Source: Nitrospirota bacterium (GTDB lineage: Bacteria > Nitrospirota > Nitrospiria > SBBL01 > JAADHI01). Taken from it: 64,000 bases of DNA. Both the position numbers and the translations under genes were made by a program. The notes beneath the pieces were generated by a model. It worked only from the letters and a program-made list of their open reading frames with translations, was not told the DNA's origin and made no database searches. The stretch covers positions 1 through 64,000 of the forward strand of contig JAJDBW010000021.1 in assembly GCA_029261155.1 (NCBI GenBank), read 5' to 3'. Of this stretch, positions 47,403 through 56,068 are shown one piece after another. Positions within the stretch are counted from its first letter, which is position 1. Each line of letters opens with the position of its first letter.

Positions 47403-49892
47403 TTAACAGCAGTCCGTTGACGAACAGGAGTCTGCGTCTTCCGAGGCCTTGGCCTTGATGACAGACGCTTCCCCTTGTGTGATCACGAAGGCCTGTTGGT
47501 AAGGTGGCTTTTGTAGTTTCGCCGCCGTATCGGTGCACACCTGCACGGCTTGATTCCGAGGGAAGAGATGGCCTTCCTCATCCACGACGGCTTGCATGGG
47601 GCCCAGGTAGGTTGCCCATTGTCCGACATAGTTGCAGCTCGCCTTTTTTTCGAATTTGTAGCCGCGAATAACTGCGGAGTAAAACCGGTAGCCTTCCACT
47701 TCTTTCCAAAGGGTTTTTTTCAAAATGGAGAGCCCGTAGAAGCCGGCCTGTTCGAGCTTCGCCAGATATTCCTTTTCGGTCAGCGCCCCCGAGACGCATT
47801 CTCCCCAAAGGCGTGGATTGGCCTTCATCCCCTCGGGCAGGGCCTGTTCCGTAATGGTATCCGAGATAACGATGCGCCCGAAATCTTTCAAGACGCGCCA
47901 AATCTCGACGAAGACCTGTTTTTTATCGGGGGAAAGATTGATAACGCAATTCGAGGTGACCAGATCGGTAAATTGGTCCGGCAAGGGGATTTCTTCGAGA
48001 TAGCCCTTTTTGAATTCGACATTGGCATAGCCTAGATTGGCCGCGACGATTTCTCTCGCCGCGTTGGCTTGACGCAGCATCCGATCGGTCATGTCGATGC
48101 CGACGACACGGCCCCTGGGCCCGACTTTTTTGGCGGCGATAAAACAGTCGATGCCACCGCCCGAACCGAGATCAACCATGATTTCACCTGCTTTGAGGCC
48201 GGCCAGATCCACCGGGCTGCCGCAGCCGTAGGAAATTTCCAGGACCTCCTTGGGGATGTGGTCGCTACCGTCCAAGGGATAGCCCTCGGGGCAGCAAAGT
48301 GCGGCCTGTGGGGTTTCGGCCGCATCTCCGTAGAAATCGCTGACGACGCGGCGGGAGTGATCGAGATCGACCGAGAGGACACAGGCCGAACGCGAGAGCG
48401 AAACCGCGAAGCCGCCAAGGGTTTCGACGCCAGGACGGGGGCTGTCTAAAACGGCATCGTCCCCCATGGCGGCAAAAATGACCGGCCGGTCATAGCCGGA
48501 GGCGGTTTTCTGCCGGGCCTTGGCCTCCGCGCGAGAAAATAAAATATCCAATATCCAGGCTTCGTAAAAATCGGAGAAGGGGTCTTCGCCCAAAAATCGA
48601 CCGCTGTATAAGTAGCTGTGTTCAATATCGCCGCCGCCGCAAAGGAATTTTAGATAACAGTCTTTACATTTCGCCTTATTTTGCACGGTCGCTTTACGAA
48701 TCGATTCAGCCAGAGGCGCGTTTTTCCATATGGCCTCAAGACTTTTTTCCAAAGTACTGCCCAAACTCAGTTCAGGAATCCCGGCCAGGGCCGCCGTCGG
48801 GTAGACTTGCGCGTCCGCATACACGCAGAGGGATTCGTAGGCCGCGTTGGAGAGATCGACCTTTAGATGCGATGGTCCCATTAAGCTGCCCATCAACACA
48901 TCGTGATTGTCGAAGCTGAGGCCCAGGGCATCCGTCGCCGCCTTGCTGCGTTTGAAGGCTTCGAGCAAGGCCGCAGTCGAAGGGGGCGCGAGGGTATCCG
49001 ATTCGAGGGCACGGCCTCGGTGATGACTCAGCAGGAGATGGAGATTTTTAATGCCGAGCTTTGAGGCGAGATGAACCATGTCTTCGAGATGCGCGACATT
49101 CGAGCGATTCACGACCGTGGTGAGGGTGGGAGAAAAACCGAGGCCGATGGCTTCTTTGATGCCACGGATGGTCGCGTCGAAGGTTCCGTTTCCCCGCATG
49201 GCATTGTTGATTTCGGCCGTCGGCCCGTCCAGGCTGATTTGGAGCTGCAGGCGGTTTGGATCGCAGAGGGATAATTTCTTGAGGTGTTCTCCACGAAACA
49301 GCATGCCGTTGGTCAGGATAATCAATTCCGCCTTCGGTATCTCAAGGATATGGTCGATGATTTCGAAGATGTCGTCTCTTAAAAAGGGTTCGCCGCCCGT
49401 AATGTAAAAACGCGATGTTCCCAAGGCCTGGGCTTGATCGATGATATTTAACCAAAACGCCGTGTCTCCACCGGGGATGCCGCTGGGCGAAGAGCTGACC
49501 AGGCAATGGCTGCAGCTGAGGTTGCAGGCATTGGTGACATGAAGCCATAGTTCACTCAAGCGGCCGGGGCGGAGGACTTCGGCGCGGCCGGGATAGGGGG
49601 CCTTCGTTTGGGATTGCGTCGAGATGAATTTCTTGCCGAGCGCCTCCTCGAAAAAACTGTGGCAATGCAGCCAGGCCTTGGCCCAGTCCATGCCGTTTTC
49701 TCGGGCGTAGGTTGCAACGAGATCGCCGAAGGTTGTCTTCCCATCCAGCTTGCGAATCAAGTCGGCGCCTTGGGCGTCCGTCGCAATCCAATGGGGCCCT
49801 TCCGGATCGATTAAAAGTCTGAGATTTTGACGAGAGATCTCTCGGTAGAGGGGGACGAAAAATCGACTGTCGTTTGCAATGGCTTCAGTCAT
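47403..49892 (-). CDS. PqqD-like - radical SAM/SPASM - ArsM-type methyltransferase fusion
   Basis: An 829-residue three-part protein. Residues about 30-92 ([20 protein letters not shown] ... [12 protein letters not shown]) have the helix-turn-helix layout of PqqD/RiPP-recognition domains. The radical SAM core has Cys 123, 127 and 130 ([12 protein letters not shown]), the GGEPF motif and an auxiliary-cluster SPASM motif [14 protein letters not shown] near 405-425. The rest is an arsenite S-adenosylmethionine methyltransferase-like module (about 520-800): [51 protein letters not shown] and [12 protein letters not shown] carry the conserved arsenic-binding cysteines. The C-terminus ends CSSTDCC. 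It is divergent from the Crp/Fnr gene with a palindromic operator between them. No arsR or ars operon is nearby, so the arsenic substrate is likely but not shown. Confidence 0.85.
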
Positions 49893-49966
49893 GTGCTCAG
49901 CTCCAATGGGGTTGTTTTTGTCCTTGTCGAATCGCGATAAGTATACGAAAAAATGGGCTGAAATAC

Positions 49967-49982
49967 TGTAGCCTATCCTACA
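49967..49982. promoter_or_regulatory. Palindromic operator TGTAGC-N4-CCTACA (copy 1)
   Basis: TGTAG-N6-CTACA, a 16-bp inverted repeat, lies in the divergent promoter between the radical SAM/methyltransferase gene and the Crp/Fnr gene. The same palindrome occurs at 50788 before the next plus-strand genes. Its form (TGTAG half-sites with 16-bp span) suits a Crp/Fnr dimer. Confidence 0.65.
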
Positions 49983-50051
49983 TTTGAAAAGGCCGGTGGG
50001 TCAAGAGCGAATCCATTCAAACCGACATTGATTAATACAGTCCCTTCACCT

Positions 50052-50765
50052 ATGATGCCTTGCATGGAAGAAAAAACCAAGCTCTGGTATCTGCAAAAGA
50101 TTAACCTCTTTAAAGAGATGACTCCCGAAGAGATGCGCGAGCTTAACCGTGTGACTCGAATGGAGTCGGTTCGGAAAAAAATGCCGATCTTTTTCCCCGG
50201 CGACCCCAGCCATCAAGTCTATCTCCTAAAGGAGGGTCGGGTAAAAATTAGCCGCATCTCCGAGGAGGGACGGGAGGTGACCCTTGCGATGCTTTCGCCG
50301 GGGGAGATCTTCGGAGAACTCGAAGTCCTTGGCGACACCCCTCGCGATACCTTGGCGGAGGCCCTGGACGACTGCCAGATTTGCGTGGTGAGCAAAGACA
50401 TCTTTCTTGCGATGGTAAGCCGCAAGCCGGAATTTTCCTTTCGGCTGACCAAGCTGATCGGATTTCGCCTCAGAAAGATCGAAAACCGCGTCGAAGATCT
50501 CGTCTTCCGAGACGTTCCGGCCCGCTTGGCCCATCTCTTAATCGACTTGTCCAAAGAGCATGGGGAGGAGGCCCCGGTTGGGATTGCCCTCAAAATTAAG
50601 ATTACTCATCAAGAGATTGCGAACCTCATCGGTTCCATCCGTGAAACCGTGAGCGCCGTGATGGGCGAGTTTAAGCGTGAGGGTTGGATTGCCTTTGAAG
50701 GGCGCCAGATCACCCTGCTTCGTCCCGATCTTCTTCAAAAACGTTCCGAATCCGCTACCCCATAG
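50052..50765 (+). CDS. Crp/Fnr-family transcriptional regulator
   Basis: About 237 residues. A cyclic-nucleotide-binding-type domain (about 15-125: ELNRVTRMESVRKKMPIFFPG, YLLKEGRVKISRISEEGREV, LSPGEIFGELEVLGDTPRDT) and a C-terminal helix-turn-helix (KITHQEIANLIGSIRETVSAVMGEF, with the R-E-T-V recognition helix) are seen. The N-terminal four-Cys cluster of FNR is absent, so it is not an oxygen-sensing Fe-S regulator by that means; it may use another ligand or haem. The start is set at 50052, with TTG 50028 and ATG 50064 as alternatives. Palindromes at 49967 and 50788 flank the gene, so auto-control and control of both neighbours is likely. Confidence 0.88.
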   Translation: MMPCMEEKTKLWYLQKINLFKEMTPEEMRELNRVTRMESVRKKMPIFFPGDPSHQVYLLKEGRVKISRISEEGREVTLAMLSPGEIFGELEVLGDTPRDTLAEALDDCQICVVSKDIFLAMVSRKPEFSFRLTKLIGFRLRKIENRVEDLVFRDVPARLAHLLIDLSKEHGEEAPVGIALKIKITHQEIANLIGSIRETVSAVMGEFKREGWIAFEGRQITLLRPDLLQKRSESATP

Positions 50766-50787
50766 TCCAAAAAACTGCAAGTCGATT

Positions 50788-50803
50788 TGTAGCCCGCCCT
50801 ACA
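50788..50803. promoter_or_regulatory. Palindromic operator TGTAGC-N4-CCTACA (copy 2)
   Basis: TGTAGCCCGCCCTACA is identical to copy 1 at 13 of 16 positions and perfect in both half-sites. It stands 23 bases after the Crp/Fnr gene and 35 bases before the thioredoxin-like gene. Confidence 0.7.
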
Positions 50804-50837
50804 TTTTCTCCCTGTCACATCGATTAGAGTAAGCGAC

Positions 50838-51131
50838 ATGGCTGTCTTAGAATTGTTTCTCGATACGCGTTGTTTCTCCGCGTCCCGGGCGATTGAACTC
50901 GCCCAATGTGTTGTCGCGAACACGGAGGGCCTCCGGCTTTTCATTCGAGATAGGCAAGCGGAGGGTGATCGGGCGCGTTTTGCCGGGGTTTTTATCACCC
51001 CGGCCTTTGTCCTCGACGGCGAGCTTTGTGCCCTTGGGACCCCCTCGCTCGACAGTCTGGTTATGAAAATAAAGAAGCGGTGCGCTGTAAGGAAAGCAGA
51101 ACATCTGAAAAATCCATCCATCGACCAATAA
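50838..51131 (+). CDS. Thioredoxin-like-fold small protein
   Basis: A 97-residue protein resembling glutaredoxin/thioredoxin-like domains: MAVLELFLDTRCFSASRAIELA at the N-terminus, then VFITPAFVLDGELCALGTPSLDS with the cis-Pro (TPAFV). The active site is CFSA, so the second Cys of a CxxC is missing, as in monothiol types. Function unknown. It is preceded by a copy of the Crp/Fnr palindrome and is followed by the His-rich periplasmic gene after 12 bases, so all are probably one regulon. Confidence 0.6.
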   Translation: MAVLELFLDTRCFSASRAIELAQCVVANTEGLRLFIRDRQAEGDRARFAGVFITPAFVLDGELCALGTPSLDSLVMKIKKRCAVRKAEHLKNPSIDQ

Positions 51132-51143
51132 AGGAGGAAGATC

Positions 51144-51671
51144 ATGAATTTGAAATCCTTGATATTTAGTCTTGCCCTCGTGGGCACCATGTTTTTCATG
51201 AATGACACGGCTTTGGCGGATACCGAACACGGCGGACATCAAAAAAATGGCGCCGTTCCAAAGGCGACCTTAGAGGCCATTGGGCCGCATATGTCGCAAT
51301 TTTTAAACTATGAACCCTTCGATCCCCCCTTGAAGAACCATCTTTGGATGAAAACCGATACGGACAAGATGATCTTTTTTCATTTTGCCAAGCCGGTCAG
51401 CGAAAAAGAAAACAAGTTGCTCTTTACCGGCGACGCCGTTAAGGGTCGTTTTTGTGCCGAGGATCAGCCGGCGGGCGGAAAAACGGGCTATGTGCATTTC
51501 CACAGTGGCGCAGTCGCCGAGGGGCACAAACACGGGCATGGGGGCGAAAAGGGGCAAGCGGGCTATTGGTTGCGCCATATTGCCTTGGGAGATTTTGAGA
51601 TGATGAACATTCAATTTCGTCCCGGCGTTGCCCATAATTTTAAAGCTACCTCTGCGCCGAGTTGTAAGTAA
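51144..51671 (+). CDS. Exported His-rich hypothetical protein
   Basis: A 175-residue periplasmic protein with a signal peptide (about 1-25, cleavage after ALA-DTEH). Histidines are clustered at the mature N-terminus (EHGGHQKNG) and in a central HFHSGAVAEGHKHGHGG motif; it also has Cys in FCAEDQPAGGKTGYVHFHS and a conserved GYWLRHIALGDFEMMNIQF. This layout suggests binding of a metal such as Cu or Zn, not a known enzyme. AAAGGAGGAAG precedes the ATG. It follows the thioredoxin-like gene by 12 bases in the likely Crp/Fnr-controlled unit. Confidence 0.65.
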   Translation: MNLKSLIFSLALVGTMFFMNDTALADTEHGGHQKNGAVPKATLEAIGPHMSQFLNYEPFDPPLKNHLWMKTDTDKMIFFHFAKPVSEKENKLLFTGDAVKGRFCAEDQPAGGKTGYVHFHSGAVAEGHKHGHGGEKGQAGYWLRHIALGDFEMMNIQFRPGVAHNFKATSAPSCK

Positions 51672-51984: not shown

Positions 51985-54645
51985 ATGTATAAGTCGATTT
52001 ATATTCCGGTGGACAATTCGGACTATTCGAACACCGCCATCGACATTGGCATGTTGTTGGCAAAACAGTTCGGATCGAAGGTCATTGGAAGTCATGCTTA
52101 TGCCGCCAAGCTTCACGACCGGCGCTTCAAACAGATGGAGGCCGGCCTTCCTGAAGAATACCACGACGAAAACGAACTGGAACGCCAACGAAAAATCCAC
52201 GATTCGCTTATTACCCGCGGACTCGAAATTATTACTGACTCTTACCTCGACATCGTCGATCAAAAAGCAAGCGAGCACAATGTGCCGGTCGAACGCCGAT
52301 CCCTTGAGGGCAAAAACTACAAAGTGCTCGTTGAAGACATCGTGAAAAATGGCTACGACCTGGTGATTTTGGGTGCCCTCGGTGTCGGGGCCGTCAAGGA
52401 AAGCCTCATCGGCAGTGTCACCGAGCGGACCATTCGCCGCGTGCGCAAATCCGATATTTTTATTGTCAAAGAACCGGCTTACGCGATCCCTAACAAGAAA
52501 AAAATCGTTGTGGCCGTGGATGGCAGCCACTACTCCTTCGGCGGCTTTAAAACCGCCCTGGCCCTGGCCAAGGCCTTCGATCTCGAAGTCGACGTCGTCT
52601 CCGCCTTCGATCCCTACTATCACTACGCCGTGTTCAACTCCATTTCAGGCGTTTTAAACGAAGAGGCCGGAAAGGTCTTCCGCTTTAAGGAACAAGAGAA
52701 GCTGCACGAGGAAGTGATCGATTCCGGCTTGGCCAAAATTTACCAATCGCATCTGGAAGTCTGTACCAAACTCGCCGAAGAAGAAAATGTCAAAATCAGC
52801 ACCTCGTTGCTCGACGGCAAGCCCTTTGAAAAAGTTTATCAATATGTCCAACGTGAGCGGCCCTGGCTCCTGGTGGTCGGGCGTATCGGTGTCCACTCCG
52901 ACGAGGAAATGGATGTCGGCAGCAACAGCGAAAATCTCATTCGAAGCGCCCCTTGTAACGTTTTGGTGTCGAACAAAAGCTACATTCCACCCATCGACGC
53001 CATTGCCGAATATACGGTCGCCTGGACCGAAGAGGCTTCCAAAAGGATGGAGAAGGTGCCGATTTTCGCTCGCGGCGTGGCCAAAACGGCGGTCTATCGC
53101 TACGCCATCGAAAAAGGCTTTACGATTATTTCCAATTCGGTGGTCGATAGCGCCATGGGCGACATCCTGCCAAAGTCTGCTATCGATATGATGAAGAATA
53201 TGGGCAAGGAACTCGACGAAAAAGGCATCGACCGAAATAAGATGGTCGCCGACGACGGCGTGGCCGAATCCCTGAAAAGCGGCGGCATCGCCGGGATGAT
53301 GACCCAAATCGTGGTCGACCCGGATGCGGAGCGTGCCGCCGGTTACGACGAAAAGGCCAAGCTCGATTTTTATCTCTGCGGCGGATGCGGCTATACCGCC
53401 AAAGGCAGCCAGCCGGTGAAGTGTCCCATCTGCAGCGCCGAAGGTAGCAAATTCCAATTTATCGACAAGTCGCTCTTCGAATCGGCAGCAAAAGCCGAAG
53501 GCGGTGTGTCTCAGGAAGTCGGCTACGATGGCGTGCCGCTCAATTGGACGGAAGATGCAAAAAATATTCTGCGAAAAGTCCCGGCCGGTTTTGACCGTCG
53601 CCGCACCAAGGCCAAGGTCGAGAAAACGGCGCGTAAGATGGGCTTCCAAACCATTTCGAAGGAATTCGTGGTTCGTATTGTGGATGGCGGGCTCGACTAC
53701 ACCGATCTCGAAAATACGGACGAAGTCACCGCCAAAGAGGAAAGCGCCAAGCCCGGGCCGACCGCACCCACATTTACTTGGAGCGACGAGGCCAAGGCCC
53801 GTCTCGAAAAGGTGCCGGTGGGTTTCATGCGGGACGCCACGCGACAGCATATTGAAAATTATGCCTTTGGAGAGTCGGTCGGTCATATTACCCTCGATAT
53901 TGCCGAAGGTGGCATCCAAAAGGCGACAAAAGAAATGGAAGACGTCATGTCCGGGGCAACGAGTCTCGACGAGATTAAAAAACGGATGGCGGCGATGTCC
54001 TCTGGTGTCTCCCCCGATGTAGCCACGGAGGAAAAATCCTTCCACTTTTGTGGAATGTGCGGACATGTCGTGAATCGGGTTCCCGAAAAATGCCCGGTCT
54101 GCGAGGCCCAGAAATCGCGTTACATGTTAATGCGCGCTGAGATCGACTACTTTATCTGCATGGTCTGCAGCTTGGTGGTCGAGCAGGTGGTGCCGGAACA
54201 TTGTTCCCTCTGCGGCGCCAATGGTGAATATCACATCCAGCTTGAACGAAAAGTCCGCGATCTTGAATCGGCCCTTCCGCAAATCGTGTGGACCGAAGCC
54301 GCATCCACCATTCTCGAAGAAATTCCGGAAGGCTTTATGCGGGAGATGACCCGTTGGCGGATTGAGGCTGATGCACGCAAAAAAGGACTCTCTGAAATCG
54401 ATCCTGAGGTGGTCTCCAGTAAGTATAATCAATGGAGCCAAGTGTCCAGAAAAGTTGAACGGCACTTGCCATGGGGTGATGATGCCTTGCATCGCATGTC
54501 CTTAATTCCTTCTTTCGTGCGCGGCACCGTGGTCAAGGAGATCGAAGCCCATGCCGAAGAGCAAGGCCTGGCGCGTGTGACGGTCGAGATCCTCGATCAG
54601 GTCACCGCACGCTGGACCGAAGCCATGCGCAACCAAGGTTTCTAA
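51985..54645 (+). CDS. Usp2 - PCP_red5 - rubredoxin-like3 fusion protein
   Basis: An 886-residue protein of five kinds of module. Two universal stress domains (about 1-165 and 168-335), each with the nucleotide-loop pattern (GALGVGAVKESLIGSVTER; GRIGVHSDEEMDVGSNSEN). Five PCP_red repeats, of the type W-T/S-x2-A-x2-R/I-L-x2-(I/V)-P-x-F-x-R, start near residues 346, 520, 597, 768 and 828. Three rubredoxin-like zinc ribbons have paired CxxC motifs (CGGCGYTAKGSQPVKCPIC about 466; CGMCGHVVNRVPEKCPVC about 688; CMVCSLVVEQVVPEHCSLC about 725). PCP_red is known from the C-terminus of BchB/ChlB. The whole has no membrane segment, so it is cytoplasmic; I infer an electron- or tetrapyrrole-carrying scaffold. 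A strong GGGGAGG precedes the ATG. Confidence 0.85.
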   Translation: MYKSIYIPVDNSDYSNTAIDIGMLLAKQFGSKVIGSHAYAAKLHDRRFKQMEAGLPEEYHDENELERQRKIHDSLITRGLEIITDSYLDIVDQKASEHNVPVERRSLEGKNYKVLVEDIVKNGYDLVILGALGVGAVKESLIGSVTERTIRRVRKSDIFIVKEPAYAIPNKKKIVVAVDGSHYSFGGFKTALALAKAFDLEVDVVSAFDPYYHYAVFNSISGVLNEEAGKVFRFKEQEKLHEEVIDSGLAKIYQSHLEVCTKLAEEENVKISTSLLDGKPFEKVYQYVQRERPWLLVVGRIGVHSDEEMDVGSNSENLIRSAPCNVLVSNKSYIPPIDAIAEYTVAWTEEASKRMEKVPIFARGVAKTAVYRYAIEKGFTIISNSVVDSAMGDILPKSAIDMMKNMGKELDEKGIDRNKMVADDGVAESLKSGGIAGMMTQIVVDPDAERAAGYDEKAKLDFYLCGGCGYTAKGSQPVKCPICSAEGSKFQFIDKSLFESAAKAEGGVSQEVGYDGVPLNWTEDAKNILRKVPAGFDRRRTKAKVEKTARKMGFQTISKEFVVRIVDGGLDYTDLENTDEVTAKEESAKPGPTAPTFTWSDEAKARLEKVPVGFMRDATRQHIENYAFGESVGHITLDIAEGGIQKATKEMEDVMSGATSLDEIKKRMAAMSSGVSPDVATEEKSFHFCGMCGHVVNRVPEKCPVCEAQKSRYMLMRAEIDYFICMVCSLVVEQVVPEHCSLCGANGEYHIQLERKVRDLESALPQIVWTEAASTILEEIPEGFMREMTRWRIEADARKKGLSEIDPEVVSSKYNQWSQVSRKVERHLPWGDDALHRMSLIPSFVRGTVVKEIEAHAEEQGLARVTVEILDQVTARWTEAMRNQGF

Positions 54646-54682: not shown

Positions 54683-56068
54683 ATGGCATACCAAGCCTAT
54701 TCTGTTTCATGGAATCTCACCCAGCGCTGCAATCTGTTTTGCACCCACTGCTACATGAGCGCCTTCCCCAATGCCGATGTCTCCGGAGACTTGACGACGG
54801 AAGAATGCTTCAAGGTGATGGACGACATCGAAAAGGTGAATCCGAACGTCTTCCTGATCCTCACCGGCGGTGAGCCCCTGGTCCGGAAAGACATCTTCGA
54901 TATTGCTGGCTATGGTTCCGACAAAGGCTTTACCTGCGTGCTCGGCACCAATGGGGTGCTCATTGGCAAGACTGAGGCGCGAAAGATGCGCGAGAGTGGT
55001 CTGCAGGGGGCATCCATTAGTCTCGACTCGGTCGATCCGGCCAAGCACGACGAATTCCGCCAGCTCCCGAAATCCTGGGAACACGCCATCCGGGGCATGA
55101 ACTATCTCAGGGAAGAGGGCCTCGATTTTTCCATCCATATGAGCGTGATGGCTTGGAACGTCTCCGAGATTCCGCGCATGATTGACCTTTCCCGCAAGCT
55201 GGGTGCGAAGGTCTTGAACTTTTTCTTTCTCATCCAAACCGGACGAGGAGAAAATATCATCGATATTGAGCCGACCCAGTACCGCGAAATCCTCACCTAC
55301 TTGGCACGGGCACAAGGCGTCGGGAGTGCAGAGCACAAGGTCTCGGGTTCCCTCTTCACCGAATTTGGCGATCCTTGGACCACGCCGGCGGGCGAAAGTC
55401 ACGGACTGATCCTTCGCGCAAAATGCGCACCCCATTTTCGAAAGGTGATCTACGATCTCGATCCCGAATCGCCTCTGCTTAAAAACTATGCTCAGGGCAG
55501 TTGTCCGGCAGGAAAATACTATTGCCGCATTACGCCCTCCGGCGACATCACGCCTTGCCCTTACATGCCGGTGACGGCGGGCAACTTGCGGGAGAAATCC
55601 TTCGACGAAATCTGGCACAACTCGCCCGTGCTCAATGACCTGCGCGATCCGGTCTTGGGCGGACGCTGTGGCGACTGTGAATTCTCGGAGATGTGCGGAG
55701 GCTGCCGCTGTCGGGCCTATGCCTCGTCCGGCGATTATCTGGGTGAAGATACGGCCTGCGATTACGAGCCGGGACAATATGGCGGAGAAAAAATTACCCT
55801 TGGGGCCGAGCAGACCTTTGGCTTGGCGGTTAATTTAACTCTAAACTGGTCGGAGTCCGCACGCGCACGCTTAAAGGGTCTGCCCTCTTTTGCACGTGGC
55901 ATGGTTTCGAGAGGGGTTGAGCAATACGCCAAAGAAAATGATATTGATTGCATCACACCGGAAGTGATGCAGGTGGTTCGTGAACGCGCAGAGACGCGTC
56001 TCGGTCGCCGCTTTAATTTTACGGAATTTAATCGGGATGGGTCTGAAGTCACCCCCACTCGAAAATAA
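54683..56068 (+). CDS. AhbD/NirJ-like radical SAM/SPASM protein with C-terminal PCP_red repeat
   Basis: A 461-residue enzyme. Radical SAM cluster at Cys 16, 20 and 23 (NLTQRCNLFCTHCYM), GGEPL motif, and a SPASM region with CAPHF, CPAGKYYC, CPYMPV and CGDCEFSEMCGGCRC for auxiliary [4Fe-4S] clusters. This order is that of AhbD, NirJ and related haem- or haem d1-modifying enzymes. After about residue 388 a PCP_red repeat ([20 protein letters not shown]) is fused on. Substrate could be a tetrapyrrole or peptide; the PCP_red fusion supports the former, as inference. GGAG is 7 bases before the ATG. It lies 37 bases after the giant Usp gene and 42 bases before the PCP_red-only gene. Confidence 0.85.
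   Translation: MAYQAYSVSWNLTQRCNLFCTHCYMSAFPNADVSGDLTTEECFKVMDDIEKVNPNVFLILTGGEPLVRKDIFDIAGYGSDKGFTCVLGTNGVLIGKTEARKMRESGLQGASISLDSVDPAKHDEFRQLPKSWEHAIRGMNYLREEGLDFSIHMSVMAWNVSEIPRMIDLSRKLGAKVLNFFFLIQTGRGENIIDIEPTQYREILTYLARAQGVGSAEHKVSGSLFTEFGDPWTTPAGESHGLILRAKCAPHFRKVIYDLDPESPLLKNYAQGSCPAGKYYCRITPSGDITPCPYMPVTAGNLREKSFDEIWHNSPVLNDLRDPVLGGRCGDCEFSEMCGGCRCRAYASSGDYLGEDTACDYEPGQYGGEKITLGAEQTFGLAVNLTLNWSESARARLKGLPSFARGMVSRGVEQYAKENDIDCITPEVMQVVRERAETRLGRRFNFTEFNRDGSEVTPTRK

Follow-up and report, generated by a model that had tools for sequence, protein, structure and literature searches.

Conserved palindromic promoters around a Crp/Fnr-family regulator point to an arsenic-methylation regulon in Nitrospiria

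Two copies of the palindrome TGTAG-N6-CTACA lie on either side of a gene for a Crp/Fnr-family protein (50064-50765, plus strand), and we judge it probable, at roughly four chances in five, that this protein activates, in class II fashion, a small regulon with arsenic methylation at its core. Positions refer to the window, that is, the whole stretch of 64,000 nucleotides that was analysed. In the proposed mechanism, the active dimer of the regulator would bind the palindrome, turning on the leftward gene of an ArsM fusion from site 1 and the rightward gene pair of a thioredoxin-like (Trx-like) and a His-rich protein from site 2. The operator, placed 41.5 bp before the predicted start, would stand in for the -35 element, the arrangement seen in class II promoters activated by CRP and in those activated by NtcA. 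Expression of the regulator would probably come from its own sigma-70-type promoter and not via site 1. An operon of TVP38 and FAD-oxidoreductase genes and a DUF3179 gene would be further targets, and arsenic or thiol stress may be the signal.

The two palindromes and their promoters

Site 1 (49967-49982, minus strand) reads TGTAGCCTATCCTACA on the forward strand and TGTAGGATAGGCTACA toward the ArsM fusion, and site 2 (50788-50803, plus strand) reads TGTAGCCCGCCCTACA. Both match the symmetric core TGTAG-N6-CTACA exactly, and both are predicted activator operators, centred at about -41.5, of the ArsM fusion and of the Trx-like/His-rich pair, respectively. The first-pass annotation had described them as two near-identical copies of TGTAGC-N4-CCTACA with perfect half-sites. 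The two copies are present at these positions with 13 of 16 bases identical; however, the perfect half-sites comprise 5+5 bases (TGTAG/CTACA) and not 6+6, the inner C...C pair of the longer form adding no symmetry. The sequence flanking site 1 differs from the flanks of site 2. The annotation had also proposed a genome-wide scan, with a palindrome frequent across the genome speaking against its role. In the whole genome of 3.56 Mb the exact pattern occurs at exactly two places, both flanking the regulator gene, and a reversed control pattern occurs at five. The number of exact copies expected by composition is about 3.4 in the genome and 0.0008 in the 837-bp interval from site 1 to site 2. With up to two mismatches the pattern is found at 511 places genome-wide, which is common noise, and the information therefore sits in the exact form together with position and conservation.

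For the spacing analysis, 31 sites were each oriented to their target gene. A TATAAT-like hexamer signal peaks only 21-22 nt downstream of the palindrome in this set, and no -10 peak was found on the mirror side of the same 31 sites. For the 18 sites corresponding to ArsM, Trx-like and His-rich genes, the mean -10 score at 21 nt is 5.4 compared to 2.3 (sd 0.47) elsewhere, and 17 bp before the -10 stands a hexamer with 0-2 of 6 matches to TTGACA. In the window, the hexamer TATACT of the ArsM-fusion promoter (49940-49945, minus strand) lies 21 nt past site 1 with a predicted start near 49933, and the hexamer TAGAGT of the Trx-like promoter (50825-50830, plus strand) lies 21 nt past site 2 with a predicted start at about 50837. 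We looked for a -35 element at both window sites and found none. A -10 at 21-22 nt and no -35 put the palindrome centre at about -41.5, where it takes the place of the -35. With starts being predicted ones, this is the layout of a Crp/Fnr class II activator, namely an operator at about -41.5, no -35 and a conserved -10. The distance between the site centre and the start codon of the Trx-like gene is 41-42 nt in all eight measurable cases, drawn from three families, which makes the predicted mRNA leaderless. The -10 hexamers of both the regulator (50028-50067) and the Trx-like gene (50825-50840) are separated from the ATG by only about 7 nt, again predicting leaderless mRNAs, and this spacing is kept in relatives.

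Conservation and co-occurrence with the regulator

Orthologs of the regulator are found in relatives within the class Nitrospiria of the phylum Nitrospirota. A check of conservation in related genomes, which the first-pass annotation had also suggested, came out in favour of the palindrome, which recurs before orthologous ArsM-fusion, Trx-like and His-rich genes. With at most one mismatch it is present within 350 bp upstream of 7 of 16 orthologous ArsM-fusion genes, compared to a mean of 0.06 and a maximum of 2 in 300 rounds of dinucleotide shuffles of those 16 upstream regions. The sites are kept in genomes where ArsM or the His-rich gene lies at a distance from the regulator (G001, G003, G014, G019 and G020); ArsM is on a separate contig yet site-bearing in three of these genomes (G001, G019, G020), and in G003 the His-rich gene is 12 kb off with the site still present. 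The palindrome tracks the target gene and not the regulator. Co-occurrence with the regulator has exceptions, which weaken the case: sites are present in G007 and G077, where no close regulator was found, and the regulator is present in G023 and G028 with no site before ArsM.

We then summarised the promoter as a model of 49 positions, R1, which includes the palindrome pairs and the -10 and was trained on 24 promoters from relatives, none of them from this genome. Some of the distal training promoters were picked by a pattern requiring a -10-like TAnnnT; the ArsM and Trx ones were not. In the whole genome, R1 ranks site 1 first (36.4 bits, E 3e-4) and site 2 second (26.0 bits, E 0.11), with ranks 4 and 5 lying before the TVP38 + FAD-oxidoreductase operon and the DUF3179 gene. 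Of 50 genomes, 14 have a regulator ortholog with an identity of 60% or more, and R1 matches were found in 12 of these and in 2 of the 36 others (Fisher 6e-8), figures that are supportive and not exact because the E-values are rough and related genomes were counted as independent. Within genus g7, regulator and R1 matches occur together in G014 and G015 and are both missing in G011, G013, G016 and G017. R1 matches are absent from genomes that lack a close ortholog but carry several further Crp/Fnr genes.

Family f6 consists of Nitrospira-like genomes, the family name being one that we infer. Its regulator is about 56% identical to that of the window, and it has the same promoter layout with the palindrome TGTRA-N6-TCACA, first seen as weak matches. 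This form precedes the Trx-like gene of G041, G059 and G067, a TVP38 gene adjoining the regulator in several f6 genomes and, in G067, an ArsM that stands alone. A second model, built from nine f6 sites, has matches with E of 0.01 or less in 11 of the 12 f6 genomes that carry the regulator vs 1 of 38 without; leaving out the training genomes, the values are 3 of 4 vs 1 of 38. Many of its lower-scoring matches lie just before ArsM genes. The operator drift in f6 accompanies changes beside the recognition helix of the regulator, from GSIRETVS to GCSRETVS. Since Trx, TVP38 and ArsM genes of f6 carry the drifted site, targets are kept while the operator drifts. We put forward, tentatively and as something we would sooner doubt than assume, that a dedicated Crp/Fnr sensor of arsenic or thiol/metalloid stress may activate arsenic methylation Nitrospiria-wide, with its operator drifting between TGTAG-N6-CTACA and TGTRA-N6-TCACA and its targets constant.

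The regulator and its candidate targets

The regulator has 233 aa, comprising a cNMP-binding fold (PF00027, 77.9 bits) and HTH_Crp_2 (PF13545, 66.3 bits), and both Pfam domains score above their cut-offs, which makes it a member of the Crp/Fnr superfamily. Its best NCBIfam match is NtcA, but with 111.8 bits for TIGR03697 against a cut-off of 244.95 we do not call it NtcA, and likewise it is not assigned to cAMP-CRP, reaching 107 of the 266 bits of the NF008732 equivalog cut-off. The N-terminal [4Fe-4S] Cys cluster of the oxygen sensor FNR is absent in 22 aligned orthologs, of which only that of G019 has a single N-terminal Cys, and an FNR assignment was rejected. We also searched the regulator sequence for a clue to its signal and found none, there being no FNR cluster and the sole Cys conserved in all 22 orthologs lying in the beta-roll. 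By sequence, the nearest solved structures belong to mycobacterial Crp/Fnr-family proteins. The genome has at least three further Crp/Fnr-like matches.

It had been predicted in the first-pass annotation that the ArsM fusion, the regulator and the Trx-like/His-rich pair form a local regulon. Architecture and conservation strongly favour this for the ArsM fusion and the pair, and we found autoregulation to be unsupported. The regulator has its own sigma-70-like promoter, TTGATT-N17-TATGAT (50028-50056, plus strand), 7 nt before the ATG and predicted to give a leaderless mRNA; TATNAT just 5' of the regulator ATG recurs in G002, G003, G004, G014 and G020. Moreover, site 1 lies some 90 bp before the regulator's predicted start, the palindrome remains beside ArsM in genomes where the regulator is located elsewhere, and regulators without a divergent ArsM neighbour (G001, G015, G019, G020, G021 and G030) have no upstream site with fewer than three mismatches. 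The term local is also too narrow, given the conserved distal promoters before the TVP38 + FAD-oxidoreductase operon and the DUF3179 gene.

The leftward target (47403-49892, minus strand) encodes an 829-aa fusion, in which a radical SAM and SPASM-like region is followed by ArsM. The ArsM part aligns to the solved ArsM 4kw7 (E 3e-39) and keeps the Cys residues of YGCG, SNCV and GEC, and from its fold and these three conserved Cys we predict it to be an arsenite methyltransferase. The fusion is 48-71% identical across several Nitrospiria families; genomes of the Nitrospira family align only to its ArsM half. The Trx-like protein (50838-51131, plus strand) has a weak Thioredoxin_3 match (E 0.0015) that is below the Pfam cut-off, and orthologs were found. 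The His-rich protein (51144-51671, plus strand) has a signal-peptide-like start and conserved His and Cys and belongs to no Pfam or NCBIfam family. It is conserved among close relatives: seven orthologs share 64 invariant positions, including many His and two Cys, and this exported-looking protein is present in only 12 of the 96 genomes of the class that were searched. Its AlphaFold2 model has a pLDDT of 52, and a PDB sequence search with it returned no match. The window also encodes an 886-aa protein (51985-54645) with two universal-stress domains, five PCP_red (protochlorophyllide reductase-type) repeats and rubredoxin-like domains, which is followed by a NirJ/AhbD-like radical SAM protein with a C-terminal PCP_red domain (54683-56068).

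Elsewhere in the same genome, a distal operon (L230:3579-5881) encodes a TVP38/VTT protein and a MerA/lipoamide-dehydrogenase-like FAD oxidoreductase. It is preceded by a one-mismatch palindrome with a -10 at 22 nt. The promoters before this operon and before the DUF3179 gene are also found in other family members. Both are likely further targets in this genome, and from the R1 matches and the promoters of the other family members, four operons or more probably make up the regulon here. Candidate targets in relatives include a PiT phosphate permease (G001, G020), ArsR followed by Pst genes (G019) and HD-domain genes; G030 adds a bufferin-like operon, a thioredoxin and a DsrE-like gene. Together with TVP38 and DUF3179, this target set suggests a metal(loid)/thiol stress response. 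The bufferin-like operon of G030 (L058:4585-7365) has an exact palindrome upstream, flanked on each side by a -10, and comprises a DUF2282 precursor and DUF692-like, DUF2063-like and DoxX-like genes, the last three named by eye.

Alternative readings and relation to known systems

The same sites and regulator could also act in repression, with the protein blocking RNA polymerase until an inducer releases it. Although the operator overlaps the -35 region, from which repression would be feasible too, the fixed -10 spacing over several families and the lack of a -35 (0-2 of 6 matches) fit an activator-dependent promoter; an operator for repression would be free to lie elsewhere and would leave a functional -35 in place. 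We consider repression unlikely, and we give slightly less weight still to another Crp/Fnr paralog reading the sites with the neighbouring regulator gene as a bystander. Each genome does have several Crp/Fnr-like genes, but the sites are found together with this particular ortholog and show no such link to Crp/Fnr genes at large, and the motif drift of f6 goes with the changes next to this regulator's recognition helix. It would be most surprising if the two palindromes were a coincidence or a functionless duplicated intergenic fragment: the few exact copies expected by composition would allow for the former, which is rejected by conservation, -10 spacing and the independent model R1, while the differing flanks of the two sites speak against the latter. 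We thus favour class II activation by the neighbouring Crp/Fnr-family protein.

If this activation is true, arsenic methylation in Nitrospirota would be switched on by a Crp/Fnr activator and not released from an ArsR repressor. The regulon would be a clean case of operator specificity drift with a conserved target set, and it would tie the His-rich protein, TVP38, DUF3179 and the radical SAM-ArsM fusion, all uncharacterised, to one response. Among the open-access papers searched we found none on this regulator, operator or regulon, where texts printing "Crp/Fnr" with a slash may escape the search. The regulon would be a new one, under a regulator of a known kind.

NtcA-activated cyanobacterial promoters have GTAN8TAC centred near -41.5 and a sigma-70-like -10, and this layout at -41.5 without a -35 is known from both NtcA-activated promoters and class II CAP promoters (PMC2661322). 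The window sites resemble those of NtcA in that their TGTA-N8-TACA contains GTAN8TAC and in that the site replaces the -35 at -41.5. They differ in having arsenic and redox genes instead of nitrogen genes as predicted targets, in belonging to Nitrospirota instead of cyanobacteria, and in an operator that prefers the inner G/C of TGTAG/CTACA. Fold and layout are also the same as those of class II CRP proteins (E. coli CRP, mycobacterial Crp), and the f6 operator TGTRA-N6-TCACA approaches the CRP consensus TGTGA-N6-TCACA, whereas the operator of the window lineage is TGTAG-N6-CTACA and the proposed regulon is small and dedicated. As in ArsR-type control, arsenite methyltransferase genes would be under control, and the ArsR gene itself is a candidate target in G019; unlike in ArsR-type control, the likely controller is a Crp/Fnr-family activator and not a metal-released repressor.
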